Below are positions 4,066-50,235 of a stretch of DNA of 64,000 bases, piece by piece. How positions within the stretch are numbered: the first letter of the stretch is position 1; every line of letters starts with the position of its first letter. A program made the position numbers and the translations under genes. This stretch comes from a virus, in IMG/VR virus record IMGVR_UViG_3300027754_004582, positions 1-64,000 of that record; one strand, given 5' to 3'. The notes beneath the pieces are model-generated. The model saw only the letters and a program-made list of their open reading frames with translations, was not told the DNA's origin and ran no database searches.

Positions 4066-6191
4066 ATTATGTCATATACAATAACAATATCAACTACAAT
4101 TGTTTGACCAACAACGGCACCATTACCAGGGATTGTTGCAACTGTTATTTGATTTGTTAACTGATTTATGGTAACTGAACCAATACCAGGAATACTTAAC
4201 AATAAATTTCTAACCGTGTCATAATATAAATTATCACTTGGTGCGTCATTTAATGATGTTGTGGTATAAAAAGGCGTAGTTGCACTGTATCCTGCAGGAT
4301 TCATAGATACTGTCGCAGAATATGTCGCATTTACTAAAGTACAATTTGTATTTCCTGTAGTTAAATCCGCATATCCTTCATTTAACATTTGTAATAAACC
4401 AAATTTTACAGGAGAATTAACATTAAACATTTCTGAACCCATAACATAAGTCTGATAAGAAACATAATTTGTTGTACATTCAATTGTTGTGCTCCTATTT
4501 TGACTACATCCGTCATAATCTGTAATAATAACACTGTAAGTACCTGCAGTTAATCCTGTAACTTGAATTTGTTGTGGGTTATTTGGAACATTGTTTGACC
4601 AATTATACGTAAACGGTGGATTTCCTGTTGAGATAAAGGCAGTTATTGTTCCGTTACTTCCACTACCACACGATGTACTATATAATGAGAAGTCTAAAGG
4701 TTGACTTGTTGGAACATAAACGTTTGAAGTTTGAACACATCCTGATGCATCAGTCACTGTAACAATGTGAGGACCAGGATTTATGTTTGTAAAAGTTACT
4801 GCCGTTAATGTTGTATCAATAATTTTATAAACATCATCTACAGAGTAATCAATTGGTAATGTTGCCCCTGTTGTAGTTGATATTAAAATTTGTCCGTTAC
4901 TTTGACCACAAGTAGTTGATGTTACTGAGGTAGAAATTGTGAATTTATTTTCCGCAATTATTATAACATCTTGGCTGTAAGTACAAGCTGAAAAATCACT
5001 AACAATTACCGTATAATCACCTGATGATAAATTTGAAAAAATCTGATTGGTTTGTTCCGTTATTAAAGTGTCTTGTGTCGCGTCAGGATAAACTAACGTA
5101 TATGTGTATGGTGCAGTACCTCCCACTAAACTAATTGTTATTAAACCATTATTACTTGAACAACTTGAACTTTCTCCAACAACACTAATTTGTGAGATTC
5201 CCTGAGGTGTTTGTAAGGTTGCAGTTGCTAAGGCAGAACATAAACCTGAATCAGTGACCAAGACTTGATAACTACCTGAAGATAAACCATCTAAAGAAAA
5301 ACTTGTTGAATAAGATACCAAAACATCTCCCGTTGAGGCTGAATAATAAAATGGTGCCGTTCCTCCTGTAACCGTTACTGTCAAAGAGCCATTACTTGAA
5401 AAACAAGTTGGTGATACTCCAGATACAGAACCAATACCTATTGGTGCCACAACCTGTACCAACCCTGTTTGAGATTGTACGCAACCATATGAATCAGTAA
5501 CCGTAACCGAATAACTTCCTTGGGTTAATCCTGTGATAAAACTTGTAGTCGCACTATTACTCCAAAGATAGGTGTACGGTCCATTACCTGTTTGACCTGT
5601 CACATAAATTTTACCATTAGGTATGTTTGCACAAGTTGAATTAGGGACAACATATAAACCAAACTCAAGTTGAGTTGATTCACTGATAATGAAGTTTTGG
5701 CTTTTTCCTGTACATCCACCTAAATCTAAAACGGTTGCATAGTAGGTACCAGCGGTTAAGCTAGCTATCGTTGTTGTAGATTGGTTTGTTGTAACTGCAG
5801 ATGTTATATAGGTACCGTTACCTGAATATACATAAAAATTTGTTGATGAATAAAAACTTGAGGACCCCAAAACTACCGAACCGTTATTTAATCCACAAGT
5901 AGTATTTTGTACAGATACAATATTAGCACAAACCCCACTTGAAACTGGTACATTTATATAAAACTGATTGTTTGTCGGTAGTGTACTATCGTTTAATCTA
6001 ACGGCATACGTTCCGAACTGTAACCCCGACCTAACTGAGGCGGCACCATTAACGGTATCAACAGATAAAGAAGGGCTAGTCCATTCTACGGTATATGGTG
6101 GCGTACCACCGTAAGGTAGTATACTAACAATACCCGAACTATTTTGGGAACAATCACCCGTTACATTTACCGTATAATTAAATGATGCCAT
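4053..6191 (-). CDS. SprB-type repeat adhesin-like fibre protein
   Basis: 712 aa with about seven consecutive repeats of roughly 80 residues over residues 4-570. Each repeat has the plan C-x-NG-x-I...G-G-x-x-PY-x-Y-x-W-S...GLxxGxYxVxVTDxxGC, seen most clearly at GNGPYTYLWSN, GLTQGSYSVTVTDSYGC and GLTAGTYSVIITDYDGC. This is the SprB repeat pattern known from Bacteroidetes gliding and cell-surface adhesins. Residues about 570-712 are a unique C-terminal domain with no recognisable motif. The repeats probably form a rod of Ig-like units in a tail fibre or other surface part, and point to a Bacteroidetes host. Start and stop are coupled to neighbours: TAATG overlap with the 1001-aa gene upstream and a 13-base overlap downstream. 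Confidence 0.85.
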   Translation of the reverse strand: MASFNYTVNVTGDCSQNSSGIVSILPYGGTPPYTVEWTSPSLSVDTVNGAASVRSGLQFGTYAVRLNDSTLPTNNQFYINVPVSSGVCANIVSVQNTTCGLNNGSVVLGSSSFYSSTNFYVYSGNGTYITSAVTTNQSTTTIASLTAGTYYATVLDLGGCTGKSQNFIISESTQLEFGLYVVPNSTCANIPNGKIYVTGQTGNGPYTYLWSNSATTSFITGLTQGSYSVTVTDSYGCVQSQTGLVQVVAPIGIGSVSGVSPTCFSSNGSLTVTVTGGTAPFYYSASTGDVLVSYSTSFSLDGLSSGSYQVLVTDSGLCSALATATLQTPQGISQISVVGESSSCSSNNGLITISLVGGTAPYTYTLVYPDATQDTLITEQTNQIFSNLSSGDYTVIVSDFSACTYSQDVIIIAENKFTISTSVTSTTCGQSNGQILISTTTGATLPIDYSVDDVYKIIDTTLTAVTFTNINPGPHIVTVTDASGCVQTSNVYVPTSQPLDFSLYSTSCGSGSNGTITAFISTGNPPFTYNWSNNVPNNPQQIQVTGLTAGTYSVIITDYDGCSQNRSTTIECTTNYVSYQTYVMGSEMFNVNSPVKFGLLQMLNEGYADLTTGNTNCTLVNATYSATVSMNPAGYSATTPFYTTTSLNDAPSDNLYYDTVRNLLLSIPGIGSVTINQLTNQITVATIPGNGAVVGQTIVVDIVIVYDIMCLT

Positions 6192-42681: not shown

Positions 42682-44556
42682 TTAATTACCGTAAGTTGTT
42701 TGGTTTGGAGCCTTTGTTGGGTTCTGTGGTGCGGTTAAACTCATGAAATATTGTTTAGTTTGTGGACTGTTTGCCCAATCATCTAACATTTTTTTTGTCA
42801 ATTCACTTCCATTAGGTGTAGTAAACTCTACTTGTATTTTACCACCCACATCTATTGTAGTTTTGGTATTTGTGGTTGTTGATGTTCCATCACCTGGCGT
42901 TTTCATTGGGAAACGTTTACTACCCAAATCTATTGGGTCTGATTTACCACCCATTAATGCATTATAGGTTGAGAATTTTCCACCATCAATACTTGGTTTT
43001 AAATTATTACCCATTAATCCTTCTAAAAGTTTTTTTCCACCCAATTCTGTTTCTGATTTGCCATTTTCAAGTTTACCTATCATTTGACCAAGAGCTTTTT
43101 GAACACCTTCTTTAAATTCTGAACCGAACTTTTGTGATTGTTTGTCCGCGGTTTCTAATAAAGTTGCACTAGCCTCTCTAAGACCTTTATTAGGGTCATT
43201 CATATCCTTTAAAAATTGTTTGAAGTCACCAATAGCTGTTGATGACATTTGTCTTCCACTTGTTGTTTTTCCGTAAAAATCAGAAAGAGTACTAGTGATT
43301 GCATCAGTTAATTTTCTTCCACCCTCAACCTCTTTATTGATTGTTTGATTACTAGCAAATCCATACATAAATCCATGGTAGATTGCTCTTACATCACCAG
43401 CAACCATTTCACTATAATCTAATTGAGACCTAGCAATTTCTTCTAATGATTTTGGAGCTTCTTTTTGTTCCTTAAGTGTTGCCTCTAATTGTTGTTGACT
43501 TACACTTGTAAGTTTTTCCCAACGTCTTTCACCTGTAGCACTGTCTTTAACACTAATTTCATATTCACCACCATCACCCATTCTAGAAATGTTTGAAAGT
43601 AATTGTTTGTCTTCTTCTTTAACGTTTAAACCAATAGAACTAATCGCTGAAAGCCTTGCATCCGCTTCTTTAGCTGCTAGTCCAAGTTTCATCATCTCAT
43701 TAGCGTTTACACCAGTTTGTTCTTGAAGTTCTTTAAGTCTTATAACCCCTTCAGGTGTTATCTTAAATGTTTTTGTTTGACTATCTAAATAAGTAAATTG
43801 TTTCGCAACGTTAACCAAACTATCCTGTATTCCTTGTGGATTATTAATTGAATCGTTCATTAACCTGAACGGGTCTGCCAAATCACCAACGGCTAACCCT
43901 AATCTTTGAAATGCTGACGCAACTTCAATCGCTCTTTCAGGTTTATATAAATTATCAGCTAAATTAAAGGTTGTATTCATATCAAACCTTAACATTGAAG
44001 CTTGCGCAGCCATTTTTGTTAATCCTTGTACACCACCCTCAAACTGATAACGATTAAGTTGGTCCATGTTGCTGGTAACAACTTTAAAAACCTCTTTTGT
44101 ATTACCCCCAATACTTTGAATATAATTTACTGAACCCTCAATTTGTTTTGACATTTGAGCAACTCCTACACCCACGTCAGCAAAACCACTTACTAAAGTT
44201 CTAATACTTTGTTCAGTTACCTTAGACGCGGCGTAAAGTTTTTCTGTTTGTTCAGTTGTAGCAATAATGTTTCTTCTACTTTCAACTGCAATATCAGAAA
44301 TTGCCTGTTGAGCAGCTATAAGGTCACCACCGAGTCTATCAATACGAGGGGTGGCATCCGCCAAGGCGGTTTTAATATCACCAATCCTTTGCCTTGTTTC
44401 ACCGAAAGCTTTATTGATTGCTCCACCGTAAACATCCAAGTCAGTAATAGCTCTAGTAATATCTGTAAAAAATGCGGACAATGCATTCTTACGGTACTCA
44501 TCCATTTTATCGGTGAGTTCTTTAAAGTAATCAAGAGGATTTTGTTCGCCAGCCAT
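42682..44556 (-). CDS. Tail tape measure protein candidate
   Basis: 624 aa. The N-terminal 330 residues are almost continuous amphipathic helix with heptad spacing (FGETRQRIGDIKTALADATP, GDLIAAQQAISDIAVESRRN), followed by a mixed region and a Gly/Thr-rich C-terminus. Pattern LVNVAKQFTYLDSQTKTFKI with ITPEGVIRLKELQEQTG is typical of tape measure-like proteins in T4-like environmental phages. At about 1.5 angstrom per residue it would set a tail near 90-95 nm, close to T4 (gp29 is 590 aa). It follows the chaperone and frameshift ORF, the classical order. No clear membrane helix is seen. Confidence 0.78.
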   Translation of the reverse strand: MAGEQNPLDYFKELTDKMDEYRKNALSAFFTDITRAITDLDVYGGAINKAFGETRQRIGDIKTALADATPRIDRLGGDLIAAQQAISDIAVESRRNIIATTEQTEKLYAASKVTEQSIRTLVSGFADVGVGVAQMSKQIEGSVNYIQSIGGNTKEVFKVVTSNMDQLNRYQFEGGVQGLTKMAAQASMLRFDMNTTFNLADNLYKPERAIEVASAFQRLGLAVGDLADPFRLMNDSINNPQGIQDSLVNVAKQFTYLDSQTKTFKITPEGVIRLKELQEQTGVNANEMMKLGLAAKEADARLSAISSIGLNVKEEDKQLLSNISRMGDGGEYEISVKDSATGERRWEKLTSVSQQQLEATLKEQKEAPKSLEEIARSQLDYSEMVAGDVRAIYHGFMYGFASNQTINKEVEGGRKLTDAITSTLSDFYGKTTSGRQMSSTAIGDFKQFLKDMNDPNKGLREASATLLETADKQSQKFGSEFKEGVQKALGQMIGKLENGKSETELGGKKLLEGLMGNNLKPSIDGGKFSTYNALMGGKSDPIDLGSKRFPMKTPGDGTSTTTNTKTTIDVGGKIQVEFTTPNGSELTKKMLDDWANSPQTKQYFMSLTAPQNPTKAPNQTTYGN

Positions 44557-44579: not shown

Positions 44580-44606
44580 AAAAAGACTGAAAATTCAGTC
44601 TTTTTT
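44580..44606 (-). terminator. Intrinsic terminator after chaperone frameshift ORF
   Basis: Inverted repeat AAAAAGACTGA / TCAGTCTTTTT. It overlaps the stop codon of the frameshift ORF (44597-44595) and ends in a T run on the coding strand. Confidence 0.75.
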
Positions 44607-44750
44607 ATTTTCTTCAATCCATTTATCTAATAAATATTTTCTTGTGAAAATCGGCATTTGTAAAAAGTCATTGTAAGAGATATTCAATAACTTGGTCAAA
44701 TAGTAGAATTCATCTAATTGACTTTTCCTATAATCAGAAGAAAGGGCGAA
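44595..44750 (-). CDS. Probable +1/-2 frameshift extension of tail assembly chaperone
   Basis: 51 codons (FALSSDYRKSQLDEFYYLTK ... IFTRKYLLDKWIEENKKD) in the frame +1 (or -2) to the gp26-like gene. It overlaps that gene's last codons and ends just before the tape measure gene. It has no in-frame ATG until 20 residues from its end, and the frame is closed by TAA shortly upstream, so independent initiation is unlikely. The coding-strand run GAC TTT TTT CGC at 44757-44746 is a plausible slip site: a shift there gives a product of about 293 aa. This is the layout of gpG/gpGT tail chaperones, which use a programmed frameshift just before the tape measure gene. Codon and residue use look like real coding sequence. 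Confidence 0.7.
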   Translation of the reverse strand, partial: FALSSDYRKSQLDEFYYLTKLLNISYNDFLQMPIFTRKYLLDKWIEENKKD

Positions 44751-45477
44751 AAAAGTCCACCCCAAAACCAACGTTAACCGTTAGCAATTCTCCTGATGGG
44801 GTTGTTACTGTTTTCTTCATATCTAATTTTGGTTCATTCTCATCCATAAACTTTTTCAAGAATTTGGAATCGGCAATCGGCATTTGTTCAATAAATTTAA
44901 CAATTTCTGATTTGTCAGGTGAACCATTCAATTCAACAATTTGTTTTGTAAGTCTCCAAGTAACTTTTGGTGCAACTCTACCTTGTGGGTATGAGTCAGC
45001 CATTTTTTCAATTTCCATTATTTCACCATATGATAATGGTTTAACTTTAATTGAAGTTTGAGACTTTGGTAACATTAATGAAAATGTACCATCTTCGTTT
45101 GGTTTTTGACCTTCAACAATACTTAACACACCCAAATCAACCGTTGTTTGGAATGGTTTTCTTGTAGCTGGGTCTGTTAGATTTACAACCATTTCATGTC
45201 CGAAAGAAGTGTTTCTTAAGAAGATTAAAATCGCTTCAATATCTCCTTCCAATAAATCTTCTATTCTAATATCTGGTTCGTAAACCTTCGCTCTTAATAA
45301 GTTAACTGCCAAATCGGCAACCCCACCCATTAAGATATTCTCATCAGCGGCGGTTAAATAACCCACTTTTAATGATTTCTTTTTATTTTTGTAGAACACT
45401 CCACCCGATGGTAAAGGAACCACGTCATGTGGAAGTGAAAAGTCTTTCTGTCCGTATTCTCTTGATTGGTCTTGCAT
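44734..45477 (-). CDS. 26: gp26-like tail/baseplate assembly chaperone
   Basis: 247 aa. The N-terminus (LPHDVVPLPSGGVFYKNKKK, then KVGYLTAADENIL) and the central GDIEAILIFLRNTSFGHEM resemble the T4 gp26 baseplate/tail assembly family (small, cytoplasmic, upstream of tape measure). It ends GVDFFRPFF. The last codons contain a six-T slip site, and a second ORF continues in another frame. It sits between tail tube and tape measure, the position of gpG-type chaperones that bind the tape measure. Expression is probably reduced relative to the tube gene by the strong hairpin directly before its start. Confidence 0.8.
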   Translation of the reverse strand: MQDQSREYGQKDFSLPHDVVPLPSGGVFYKNKKKSLKVGYLTAADENILMGGVADLAVNLLRAKVYEPDIRIEDLLEGDIEAILIFLRNTSFGHEMVVNLTDPATRKPFQTTVDLGVLSIVEGQKPNEDGTFSLMLPKSQTSIKVKPLSYGEIMEIEKMADSYPQGRVAPKVTWRLTKQIVELNGSPDKSEIVKFIEQMPIADSKFLKKFMDENEPKLDMKKTVTTPSGELLTVNVGFGVDFFRPFF

Positions 45478-45549: not shown

Positions 45550-46038
45550 TTAGTATACTAACACACATCTGTCCATTCTCAATGTAGCAGCAATTGTAGC
45601 TAAACCGTCTTGGTTGTAAGCTAACTGATTGAAGTTAACATCTGTCATAAATGTACCATACAAAATCCATTTTTCAACCACAACTCCTGTTGGGTCTAAC
45701 ATTTCAATGTCAATGTCTTTTTTGTATCCTGCCGCGTATCCCATACGACCTGTAACTGATTCTGCACATAGACGAACCCACTCCATAAGAGCTTGAGCCG
45801 CTGATGGTCCGATTGGGTCTCTGAACACCACGTTAATGGTTTGCCAGTTGAATCTTCCTGCAACCCATGTTGATGTGTTAAGGAATGGTATCTCAGTAGC
45901 ATTAATTGTAATGTGAGGTCTTGCAGCACTTTCTACAAACCACTCATTAATTCCTAAGCTTGACGGGAATCTTAAAATAAAACGATTCTGACGTTTCGGC
46001 TCATAAGGAAGAGGCATTTTCATTAGTAAATCAGCCAT
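45550..46038 (-). CDS. 19: Tail tube protein (gp19-like)
   Basis: 162 aa, the same size as T4 gp19 (163 aa). Motifs RQNRFILRFPSSLGINEW, ARPHITINATEIPFLN, VAGRFNWQTINVVFRDPIGP and a C-terminal YNQDGLATIAATLRMDRC fit the T4 gp19/Hcp-like tube fold. Stacked hexamers form the inner tube through which DNA passes. The leader is 32 bases, A-rich, with TATTTATC at its head, almost the same geometry as at the sheath gene. Followed by a strong terminator, in keeping with a high-copy product. Confidence 0.93.
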   Translation of the reverse strand: MADLLMKMPLPYEPKRQNRFILRFPSSLGINEWFVESAARPHITINATEIPFLNTSTWVAGRFNWQTINVVFRDPIGPSAAQALMEWVRLCAESVTGRMGYAAGYKKDIDIEMLDPTGVVVEKWILYGTFMTDVNFNQLAYNQDGLATIAATLRMDRCVLVY

Positions 46039-47004: not shown

Positions 47005-50000
47005 TTAGATATTTTCAAATGAAGCCCCTGTTGGTGTGATAAAGAATTCAATATCAATGAATTCAAGAGCTTTAGTTGGTTTAAGATAAATTTTACCTGT
47101 TAAAGTATTTCTATCTAAGTCTTCAGGTGAAGAAGATACCGTTACACGGAAGTCATAAAGACCTCTATCTCTTCTAATACCATCTAAGATTGGGTTAACA
47201 CTATCCAAGAATTGTTGTCTTACAACTTGGTCGTTTTGTTCAAATAACAATCTAACCGCTACAGCTGAAATTAACTTACGAGCTTGTAATAACAATCTTC
47301 TAACATTTAATCTATTAAGAGCTGTGTCAGCAACTTGAAGTGTTTTGTTACCCCAAATTACAGTTCCAACGTCTGCAAATGTTGCGATTGGGTTGATTCT
47401 ACCTTGATAAAGTGTATCTCTATCTTCTTGAGTCAACTTAACTCTTGCTTTGATTGAGTTTACAAGACCTCTTGTATAACCCGCTGATGCGAACCAAGGG
47501 AATGCAATATTATCTGTAAGTGCTAAGTTTCTACAAACCTCACCAGTTGCTGGTAAATAGATTTGTGTGTTATTCACAGTATCTCTTGTTAAAATCCAAG
47601 GATAATAAGTAGCTGTATAGTTTGAATCAATTCCTGTGTTATCTAAGTTATCAACAGCCTCTTGTGGATAGATAATCGCTTGAGGGTCAGTTGAATCTGG
47701 TAGATACATGTTATAGTCAGGTGTTGTTACAATATACACAGAATCAGCTCTTTGATACTGAACCATGTTAATTGCCGCCTCACATAAGTTTGAATTAAAT
47801 ACATAATCAATACTTGCAGTTGCAAATACGTTAATGTTTGTAGCTTCAGGATTTGCGAATGTTAAAATACCAAGTAAGTAAGCGTAGTAGTCAGTGTTTG
47901 CAAAGTCTTGAGTATTATTTTGTACAATAATTCTCTTGAACATACCATCACCTGTTGCTGTAGGATATCTTGATTCAGGATAAGCACCTGCCAAATACCC
48001 TGTAGCTCCTAATTGGAATCTATCGGTATTTGTTCTTGATTCTTCATAAATGTTCCATCCATCAAATCCACCCGCGAAACATACTGTGTATTTTCTTGAA
48101 TAGATATAATAGTAAGGATTTACTTGAGTTTCTGGGTCATTTCTGAAATCTGCCACTCCACACTCAAATGCAGTTTGTCCACTTGTTTCATATACATTAC
48201 CAATTGTTACAACAGTTGCACCTGAATCCATATGGAATCCTTTTGAAAGGACATTCCAAGGAATTGAATCTGTTGCAACTTCCCAACCCGCTTGTGGATT
48301 TTGTTTACCTTTATAAGTTAAGAATGATTCGTCAATACCATATTCAGTTGAAAATCCTAAATAACTTCTTCTAACAATATTACCTGGAGACTCAACAGAA
48401 TTAGGACCACCAAAAGGACTATTAAATGGAGGATTAGCAATTACTTCACCTGGATAATAATACTTTGTTTTGAATTTAGGGTATGGTGATGGATTGTTAG
48501 GACTAGCATATTCTCTTTGTGTGTAACCGTAGAAACCACAAGGTAATGCATCAATAGGATATTCATCAGCTAATTCAATCATAATATATTTTGAAATAAG
48601 TGCAAATTCTCCGTTAGATGAACCAATTTTTTTAGCCACAAAATTATTTGATGCTGGGTCCATGTTACAGTTTGTAAATTTTTCAATAACAACAGGATTC
48701 GCATCTGTATCAAAGAAGTTTCTAACTAAAACATCAAAACTCATGTTATTGAACGATAAGTTAGCGATTGAAACTTTAATTTCAACGTTTGCAGAATCTC
48801 CGTCAGAGATTGATATAAATTTAAATAATCTGTAAACCTTGTTACCTCTTAATTCTGAAACCAAGAATGGTGTTTCGGGTGATTGATATTTTTCTAAATT
48901 CCACGCGATTGATGAAGCACTTCTACTTCTAGCACTTGGTAATCCAACTAATTCACAATTTAAACCTTTAATATAACCTTGATTGTATGCATAGTTTAAA
49001 GTACCAGGATAAATTTCCTCAACAAAAATTGGAGTTTCAAATCTTGATTTACCAAAGTTGTCTAAACCTAATACTTTTGTAATATACTTTGAAGACGCCG
49101 CAGATAACGAAGATTCTAATTGGAAGTTATTGCCATCTTTAGTAACACCCGATAATAAGAAAGTTTCATAAGGTGATTGAGTTACTCCTGAATATTGTCC
49201 ACTACAAACCATTGTAAGTGCACTTAAACCTGCAACTGTTCCCCCTGAGTTAACTTCATAAATTGGTCCGTGTTCATCACCAGTAGAACTATTCGCATAA
49301 AGTGAAATACCTCTTGAACGAAGTGTTGCAATCACCATGTTATTAAATTCAGAGTATGCAGTTCCTGAAAAAGTATAAACATTACCTTCAATTGTACCTG
49401 TATAATTTCCTGTCGCTCCCGTTACTAAGTTTGTTACTGAATAATAGAAAGAGTAACCTGAATAATCATTACCTGAATAATTGTCAAAGTTAGCATAAAA
49501 CCAAGCATCATTATTATTAGAACTTAAATCGTTTGTTTCTAAGTTATTAGTGTCACAAAGATATTCGTTAATTTGATTACTATATTGTGTAACAATTGGC
49601 CAATAGTCTGAACCAGGTATTGCACCATAGAAAGCAACTGTTGTTGCGGATAATGATGGTTGTTGTGCCACACCATTAATCTCACCTGAAAAATCAGTAA
49701 ATAAATTAGATGTATCACCATTATTCATTGTATATTGAACATAAAGATTTGGTGTGATATAACTATCAAACACCGCATCAGGTGTTGTAAAATTAAACGT
49801 ATCACCTGTAGAATTTCCACTGAAATCTATAGAGAAAGCTTGACCAACATTTGTTTCTAATCCAATTGTTGTTGGGTCAACATTAGCTGTTGTTCTAATA
49901 CTCCATGATGGACCCGCATCATAACCAGAAAGACCCAATACTCTCGTAACAAACAATTGGTTAGATTGTTGTAAATAAGATTTTGCGATATACGCAGCCT

Positions 50001-50235
50001 CATATTGTGGGATTTGTGTATTCACAAACTTGACAGGTTCTGTACCACCGAAGTAGGCTTGGAATTCGTCATAGTTTGTTATAAAGACAGGTTCAAAAGC
50101 GGGACCCTTTATAGTCTCACCTACTAAACCTAATGTTGTAACACCCACGCTCTGAGCCACGAACGATAAGTCCGTTTCAGATGTATAAACACCTGGGGAT
50201 ACAAATACTTTTTGATTAACTTGTGCTGTTGCCAT
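47005..50235 (-). CDS. 18: Tail sheath protein (gp18-like), enlarged
   Basis: 1076 aa. The N-terminus FVSPGVYTSETDLSFVAQSV, then GVTTLGLVGETIKGPAF, FITNYDEFQAYFGG, is the classical contractile sheath start. The C-terminal 170 residues (YQGRINPIATFADVGTVIWG, NRLNVRRLLLQARKLI, RDRGLYDFRVTVSSS) are the conserved inner domain that holds the tube and links neighbours. T4 gp18 is 659 aa. About 400 extra residues are therefore inserted in the middle (about 140-700), rich in Gly, Ser, Asn and Tyr and probably exposed on the tail surface. A 32-base A-rich leader carries TATTTATC, as at the tube gene. Closed by a strong terminator. Confidence 0.95.
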   Translation of the reverse strand: MATAQVNQKVFVSPGVYTSETDLSFVAQSVGVTTLGLVGETIKGPAFEPVFITNYDEFQAYFGGTEPVKFVNTQIPQYEAAYIAKSYLQQSNQLFVTRVLGLSGYDAGPSWSIRTTANVDPTTIGLETNVGQAFSIDFSGNSTGDTFNFTTPDAVFDSYITPNLYVQYTMNNGDTSNLFTDFSGEINGVAQQPSLSATTVAFYGAIPGSDYWPIVTQYSNQINEYLCDTNNLETNDLSSNNNDAWFYANFDNYSGNDYSGYSFYYSVTNLVTGATGNYTGTIEGNVYTFSGTAYSEFNNMVIATLRSRGISLYANSSTGDEHGPIYEVNSGGTVAGLSALTMVCSGQYSGVTQSPYETFLLSGVTKDGNNFQLESSLSAASSKYITKVLGLDNFGKSRFETPIFVEEIYPGTLNYAYNQGYIKGLNCELVGLPSARSRSASSIAWNLEKYQSPETPFLVSELRGNKVYRLFKFISISDGDSANVEIKVSIANLSFNNMSFDVLVRNFFDTDANPVVIEKFTNCNMDPASNNFVAKKIGSSNGEFALISKYIMIELADEYPIDALPCGFYGYTQREYASPNNPSPYPKFKTKYYYPGEVIANPPFNSPFGGPNSVESPGNIVRRSYLGFSTEYGIDESFLTYKGKQNPQAGWEVATDSIPWNVLSKGFHMDSGATVVTIGNVYETSGQTAFECGVADFRNDPETQVNPYYYIYSRKYTVCFAGGFDGWNIYEESRTNTDRFQLGATGYLAGAYPESRYPTATGDGMFKRIIVQNNTQDFANTDYYAYLLGILTFANPEATNINVFATASIDYVFNSNLCEAAINMVQYQRADSVYIVTTPDYNMYLPDSTDPQAIIYPQEAVDNLDNTGIDSNYTATYYPWILTRDTVNNTQIYLPATGEVCRNLALTDNIAFPWFASAGYTRGLVNSIKARVKLTQEDRDTLYQGRINPIATFADVGTVIWGNKTLQVADTALNRLNVRRLLLQARKLISAVAVRLLFEQNDQVVRQQFLDSVNPILDGIRRDRGLYDFRVTVSSSPEDLDRNTLTGKIYLKPTKALEFIDIEFFITPTGASFENI

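Follow-up and report, generated by a model that had tools for sequence, protein, structure and literature searches.

We found that a gp26-like gene on the minus strand of the window (the whole 64,000-nucleotide stretch of viral DNA analysed here) very likely gives rise to the two forms of a tail assembly chaperone of the T4 type, the long one being produced by a programmed +1 ribosomal frameshift at a UUU_CGN site near the 3′ end of the gene. The features of the locus that bear on this reading are the following:

44734..45477, minus strand: gp26-like gene, short tail assembly chaperone (TAC-N) of 247 aa (PF12322, phrog_150, AlphaFold model)
44749..44754, minus strand: TTT TTT, codons 242-243, the second TTT being the proposed P-site slip codon (conservation across relatives)
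44746..44748, minus strand: CGC, rare A-site Arg codon, whose C is the base proposed to be skipped or re-paired (codon usage, CGN conservation)
44595..44747, minus strand: +1-frame extension (TAC-C), 50 codons plus TGA (coding signature, AlphaFold, phrog_150 match of the fusion)
44734..44736, minus strand: zero-frame TGA stop of the short form (variable among relatives)
44760..44763, minus strand: GGGG, codons 239-240, synonymously frozen upstream element (conservation)
44798..44801, minus strand: CCCC, codons 226-227, frozen and complementary to GGGG (conservation, alignment fold)
44788..44796, minus strand: TCAGGAGAA, codons 228-230, frozen, loop of the candidate stem (conservation)
42682..44556, minus strand: downstream tape-measure gene candidate (position and length; weak profile match to phrog_10613 tape measure, E 0.42)
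45550..46038, minus strand: upstream tail tube gene (phrog_4542 tail tube, E 1e-24)

The gp26-like gene ends ...GGT TTT GGG GTG GAC TTT TTT CGC CCT TTC TTC TGA on the minus strand. A first-pass annotation had noticed a hidden reading frame here, and re-derivation of the coordinates confirmed it: the gp26-like CDS runs from 45477 to 44734, the TTTTTTC run occupies 44754-44748 as described, and the 51-codon frame corresponds to 44747-44595, that is, 50 codons plus a TGA (44595-44597) that stops just short of the tape-measure gene (start 44556), the ATG of this next gene lying 38 bases further on. The fused product, announced at roughly 33 kDa, comes to 293 aa and 33.3 kDa by computation from the sequence. 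The overlap of the 2 frames had been put at 16 or so codons and is longer, as the upstream +1-frame stop leaves about 22, and the remark that the frame has no usable ATG holds for the window, where none occurs in the overlap; TTG codons are present.

Profile searches and position gave the gene order sheath (47005-50235), one further ORF, tail tube, gp26-like gene, extension, and tape-measure candidate; the sequence of tube, chaperone, chaperone extension, and tape measure is the lambda-type order. At 1076 aa the sheath protein is unusually long, and its C-terminal part holds the sheath domains that were recognised. The locus also has two strong hairpins flanked by U-rich sequence (44606-44580 and 45517-45487; z −4.0 and −5.6), one including the stop codon of the extension and the other directly preceding the gp26-like ATG, and both look like terminators separating single late genes. 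The motif TATTTATA, the reverse complement of the T4 late promoter box TATAAATA, was seen on the sense strand approximately 11 to 23 bases 5′ of several minus-strand starts (44578-44571, 42658, 18704, 10120, and others). Shine-Dalgarno signals were present in 3 of 29 start regions of the window (1.3 expected) and leaders are A-rich, as in Bacteroidota phages. The scarcity of these signals offers at most a hint of a Bacteroidota host; a search of genome contigs for the host returned no relative of the gp26-like gene.

Profile and structure comparisons were used to place the 2 predicted products. The short form matched PF12322 (T4_baseplate) at 32.7 bits, above the cut-off of 24.5. Within the 282 positions of phrog_150, the short form matched 15-219 (47.9 bits) and the +1 fusion (P0001) 17-281 (53.0 bits), compared to 14-235 for T4 gp26 and 13-280 for T4 gp51. 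By these spans gp26 is the counterpart of the short form and gp51 that of the fusion; the two T4 proteins appear in the literature as hub assembly chaperones (PMC3004832). On this evidence the window gene belongs to the T4 gp26-type chaperone family, and its predicted long form reaches the gp51-type C-terminal part; T4 likewise has a short and a C-terminally extended form from the same family (PF12322, phrog_150), but encodes them in 2 separate genes, whereas the window clade would use a +1 shift at UUU_CGN. In AlphaFold, the short form and the extension were modelled separately. The short-form model (pLDDT 84.7) had as its top Foldseek match in the PDB the HK97 tail assembly chaperone 2ob9, a weak match (E 0.19, prob 0.93); its VIA Z of 5.2 with 2ob9 (3.9 A over 94 residues) was tied with those of YqbN (5.6) and 3fgx (6.2), all of them low. 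A further 56 predicted viral proteins matched this model at E ≤0.001, many of them named T4-type baseplate hub proteins. The extension was modelled as 3 helices (pLDDT 88.8).

To assess conservation, viral contigs were scanned for relatives of the gp26-like protein. Of the 415 obtained, the best 80 were read, and with the window this made 81 loci. The +1 extension was present in 81/81 of these window-clade loci, continuing for approximately 45 to 51 codons beyond the site with a common protein pattern in the 80 relatives and the window, except for one ended by its contig end. The −1 frame was closed in all 81 (extension <20 codons), so that the open, conserved −1 frame expected of an X_XXY_YYZ tandem slip was sought in these loci and found absent. 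A second set came from a degenerate pattern scan with the wobble bases left free, which returned 79 further matching sites; in 77 of these a gp26-like frame was accompanied by an extension that was complete or nearly so, the other 2 being cut by contig ends, and 50 were diverged enough to count. Since this set was selected for TTT_CGN, it is uninformative on TTT_CGN itself and informative on wobble bases and upstream codons.

Among 33 dereplicated relatives, 74% of the single-base codon differences beyond the overlap were synonymous when read in the +1 frame, compared to 17% and 8% for the remaining frames, and differences at +1-frame codon positions 3, 1, and 2 stood at 5269 : 1298 : 347; because the compared pairs share ancestry, these values are proportions and not counts of independent events. 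In the same relatives, the other 2 frames of the extension hold on average 4.5 and 6.2 stops. These comparisons indicate that the extension is translated as protein, evolving as such in the +1 frame only, and that its presence is not due to chance. The first-pass annotation had named relatives without the second frame, or with a normal start in place of the shift, as grounds for giving up the idea; none of the former was seen among the clade loci read, and no such start replaces the shift throughout the clade. The comparison of relatives thus lends good support to its proposal that a programmed shift near the end of the chaperone gene leads into the +1 frame.

Across the best 80 of the 415 relatives and the window, the site reads TTY TTT CGY CCT TTC TTC, the conservation of CGY and CCT being partly forced by dual coding. 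Codon 243 is TTT in 33/33 representatives and codon 242 can be TTC; several relatives read GAT TTC TTT CGY or GAG TTC TTT CGG and retain the extension. The A-site codon is CGN in all relatives examined, including the second set, which was chosen for CGN; in the 50 diverged sites it was CGT in 26, CGC in 18, and CGG in 6. These are seldom used codons: CGC accounts for 2 of the 17,894 codons of the window, and CGN for 9% of its Arg codons compared to 84% for AGA. AGA stood at the site in 0 of the 80 relatives read; it would destroy UUU_C because it removes the C. The only constant of the site is UUU followed by C, within an Arg codon of the CGN box, at which tRNA-Phe can re-pair one base on as UUC. 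The T-run to which attention had been drawn is present in the window; the invariant part is UUU_CGN, and the run of 6 T is broken in several relatives. The stop of the short form is TGA or TAA among relatives, or is displaced by 2 codons through a TGA-to-GGA change (L043, L046, L047, L050, and others) with the shift arrangement unaltered, and such variability means that it is not part of the signal. A downstream hairpin was also considered as a conserved stimulator and rejected, with z-scores from −1.4 to +1.5 in 5 relatives and no common structure.

Taking the observed reading frames, conservation, coding signature, and family match as a basis, we infer a slip event, with its direction and efficiency, and assembly roles that would run as follows. 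The majority of ribosomes would terminate at TGA and release the 247-aa gp26-like short form. In a minority, tRNA-Phe would sit on UUU (codon 243) in the P site with the rarely used CGC waiting in the A site and re-pair from UUU to UUC one base forward; translation of a further 50 codons in the +1 frame would then give the 293-aa long form with its small helical end domain. If lambda G/GT and T4 gp26/gp51 are a guide, the portion shared by both forms would be expected to cover the tape measure, and the extra domain to bring in tail tube subunits. The computed junction peptide of the fusion is TVTTPSGELLTVNVGFGVDFFALSSDYR. A +1 shift predicts DFFALSSDYR at the junction (...GVDFFALSSDYR), and a −2 shift would leave an extra Phe, DFFFALSSDYR (...GVDFFFALSSDYR).

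Alternatively, the extension could be a small gene in its own right, with coupled or independent initiation at a TTG or GTG codon inside the gp26-like gene (e.g., the TTG at 44771). Nearly all relatives have a +1-frame TTG (from TTT GGG) 6 codons 5′ of the extension, many have an ATG approximately 9 codons 5′ of it, and cyanophage records annotate the corresponding frame as a gene of its own from an internal ATG. That ATG is missing from the window and several relatives, however, and in 2 relatives (L016 and L017) a +1-frame TAG lies immediately 5′ of the site, between the TTG and the extension, with no start codon beyond it, so that internal initiation cannot yield the extension there. Separate initiation would moreover leave the frozen UUU_CGN codons unexplained, in a phage with little Shine-Dalgarno enrichment and a family whose long form, T4 gp51, is a single continuous chain. 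We therefore regard an internal start as improbable.

Slightly less probable again is a −2 ribosomal frameshift on the T6 run, which would reach the same frame and is the type of shift used by the phage Mu chaperone (PMC5009743, PMC3498833). The relatives reading GAT TTC TTT CGY or GAG TTC TTT CGG offer no good −2 re-pairing and keep the extension, and from the first suggestion of "+1 or −2" only the +1 part therefore stands. The same relatives bear on RNA polymerase slippage, by which homopolymer runs in AT-rich phages can give a mixed mRNA pool: 6 bases are short for such slippage, and the arrangement is kept where the run is broken to TTCTTTC, making this very improbable. Although a single-base shift can mimic a programmed one, a broken gene or an assembly or sequencing error is refuted by the relatives and deserves almost no weight, since 81 loci drawn from numerous metagenomes share the arrangement, both frames are under purifying selection, and isolated phages carry extensions of a comparable kind.

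Returning to the +1 shift at UUU_CGN, we asked which bases upstream of the site are constrained beyond the protein. The short form has 56 four-fold degenerate codons, and in 33 relatives the wobble base is invariant at only 4 of them (codons 226, 229, 239, and 245). All 4 fall in its last 22 codons; as approximately 10 of the 56 lie there, such clustering has a probability of about 6 in 10,000. The second frame accounts for codon 245 but not for codons 226, 229, and 239, because +1 translation begins only after codon 243. The frozen codons spell CCCC (226-227), UCAGGAGAA (228-230), and GGGG (239-240). Codon 239 is GGG in 33/33 relatives and 50/50 diverged sites, though GGG represents 6.5% of Gly codons. 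The wobble C of codon 226 is kept in 33/33 and 49/50, its sole exception (L304) being also without the fourth G, and codon 229 is GGA in 33/33 and 49/50, with TCA in 47/50 of the diverged set. In the alignment fold from RNAalifold, CCCC and GGGG form a candidate pairing, to which covariation cannot speak because these bases do not vary. AGGAG lies 38 bases 5′ of the slip codon and is followed by no usable start in the +1 frame, and the 8 bases from GGGG to the P codon do not fit the short RF2-type spacing of Shine-Dalgarno-type stimulation. These patterns suggest that a CCCC / AGGAG / GGGG RNA element just upstream probably tunes the shift, and the frozen codons are a candidate stimulator.

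The direction of the shift was then compared across the gp26 family. In the clade of Flavobacterium phage immuto, a +1 extension was seen in essentially all of 81 loci (2 were short, through contig ends or nearby stops) at TTT_(CTT, TTT or CTA) TGG CCT GAC, i.e., UUU_Y. The +1 layout with UUU_Y sites also occurs in SP-15, LIS04, GXN1, RM378, and Mel-JY01, and +1 was seen in LR756508 and L253 as well. The cyanophage S-SM2 clade has a −1 extension at T_TTT_TTC in 81/81, and −1 was further seen in XacN1, Atu_ph07, Astolliot, Moby, Vibrio D532 and 6E35.1a, RHph_I9, CBA120, ME01, P-RSM6, AG-345-D19, LR756511, and L092. In cyanophage loci of the L085 type, GAG GGN (Shine-Dalgarno-like GAGGG) occupies codons −5 to −4, 10 bases 5′ of T_TTT_TTC, and an element of this kind at a 10-base spacing stimulates −1 shifts. 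Scans with XacN1, LR756511, and GXN1 as queries gave few or no further loci. Judged by their reading frames, one part of the family uses +1, the cyanophage and most proteobacterial members use −1 (mostly at T_TTT_TTC), and T4 has the separate genes 26 and 51. In a tree built from 49 short forms, 1 or 2 changes suffice for the +1 members, compared to approximately 16 with shuffled labels, the exact number being uncertain because of long branches (RM378, T4, and others). The +1-encoded domain resembles the −1-encoded cyanophage domain weakly by itself (E 0.013, probability 3%), and the Flavobacterium-type domain links both. We tentatively propose, at a little under even chances, that the shift direction switched between −1 and +1 within one orthologous tail chaperone with its two-form product kept, and that in the +1 clade of the window a cis-acting RNA element lying upstream (CCCC / UCAGGAGAA / GGGG, which may form a stem behind the ribosome) stimulates +1 without downstream structure, in a phage that lacks Shine-Dalgarno signals.

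That chaperones of T4-like phages can be frameshifted is already known. Vladimirov, Gautam and Davidson (2022, Virology 566:9) reportedly identified the chaperones of T4-like phages, with several T4-like groups using a frameshift and T4 itself using separate genes. Because of that work, and because cyanophage and other relatives shift −1 at the same place, frameshifting in itself is not unique here among T4-like phages. A 2025 paper cites the 2022 study for T-rich −1 signals in T4-like phages (PMC12846349), and tail chaperone frameshifting of −1, −2, or +1 in various phages is textbook knowledge, to which T4 was the stated exception in 2016 (PMC5009743). A literature search for +1 in T4-like chaperones found nothing, with the reservation that the 2022 study may already list +1 cases. 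The +1 UUU_CGN type, the change of direction, and the frozen upstream element appear to be new.

Several known systems resemble the locus. Lambda G/GT (−1), Mu (−2), and HSTV-2 (very likely +1) also have a short and a frameshift-extended chaperone just before the tape measure (PMC5009743), a likeness of layout; lambda and Mu differ from the window clade in shift direction and HSTV-2 in host domain. The tail chaperones of Vandenendeviridae and Andersonviridae have a T-rich site at the 3′ end of TAC-N and are often annotated as 2 genes, but shift −1 (PMC12846349). Listeria phage PSA likewise has a +1 frameshift in a tailed phage, but in capsid and tail shaft genes, with a Pro codon and a pseudoknot or stop as stimulator (PMC5009743).

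At the site itself, there is a likeness to influenza A PA-X, which is made by a +1 shift at UCC_UUU_CGU through re-pairing of P-site tRNA-Phe to UUC, with an effect of the rare Arg codon (PMC3498833). Its authors predicted in 2012 that UUU_C sites with a limited choice of A-site codons form a broader class (PMC3498833), and TTT_CGN in all clade members combines the 2 marks of that class, a possible P-site re-pairing and a seldom used A-site codon. PA-X differs in its eukaryotic ribosome, its unrelated product, and its E-site codon, UCC as opposed to UUY; with TTT or TTC there, the window site would work like PA-X at UUU_CGN, although the motif is not identical. The 2 cases are independent uses of the motif.

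Together, these results suggest that having both a short and a long tail chaperone is an old requirement, and that the decoding trick that provides them is exchangeable within one family, be it +1, −1, or separate genes. The window clade apparently holds a natural bacterial UUU_CGN +1 site, with an upstream element that is a testable stimulator. Many deposited genomes of the gp26 family miss or misannotate the long chaperone, as in immuto, LIS04, XacN1, SP-15, and CBA120, where the extension is a truncated hypothetical gene or unannotated.
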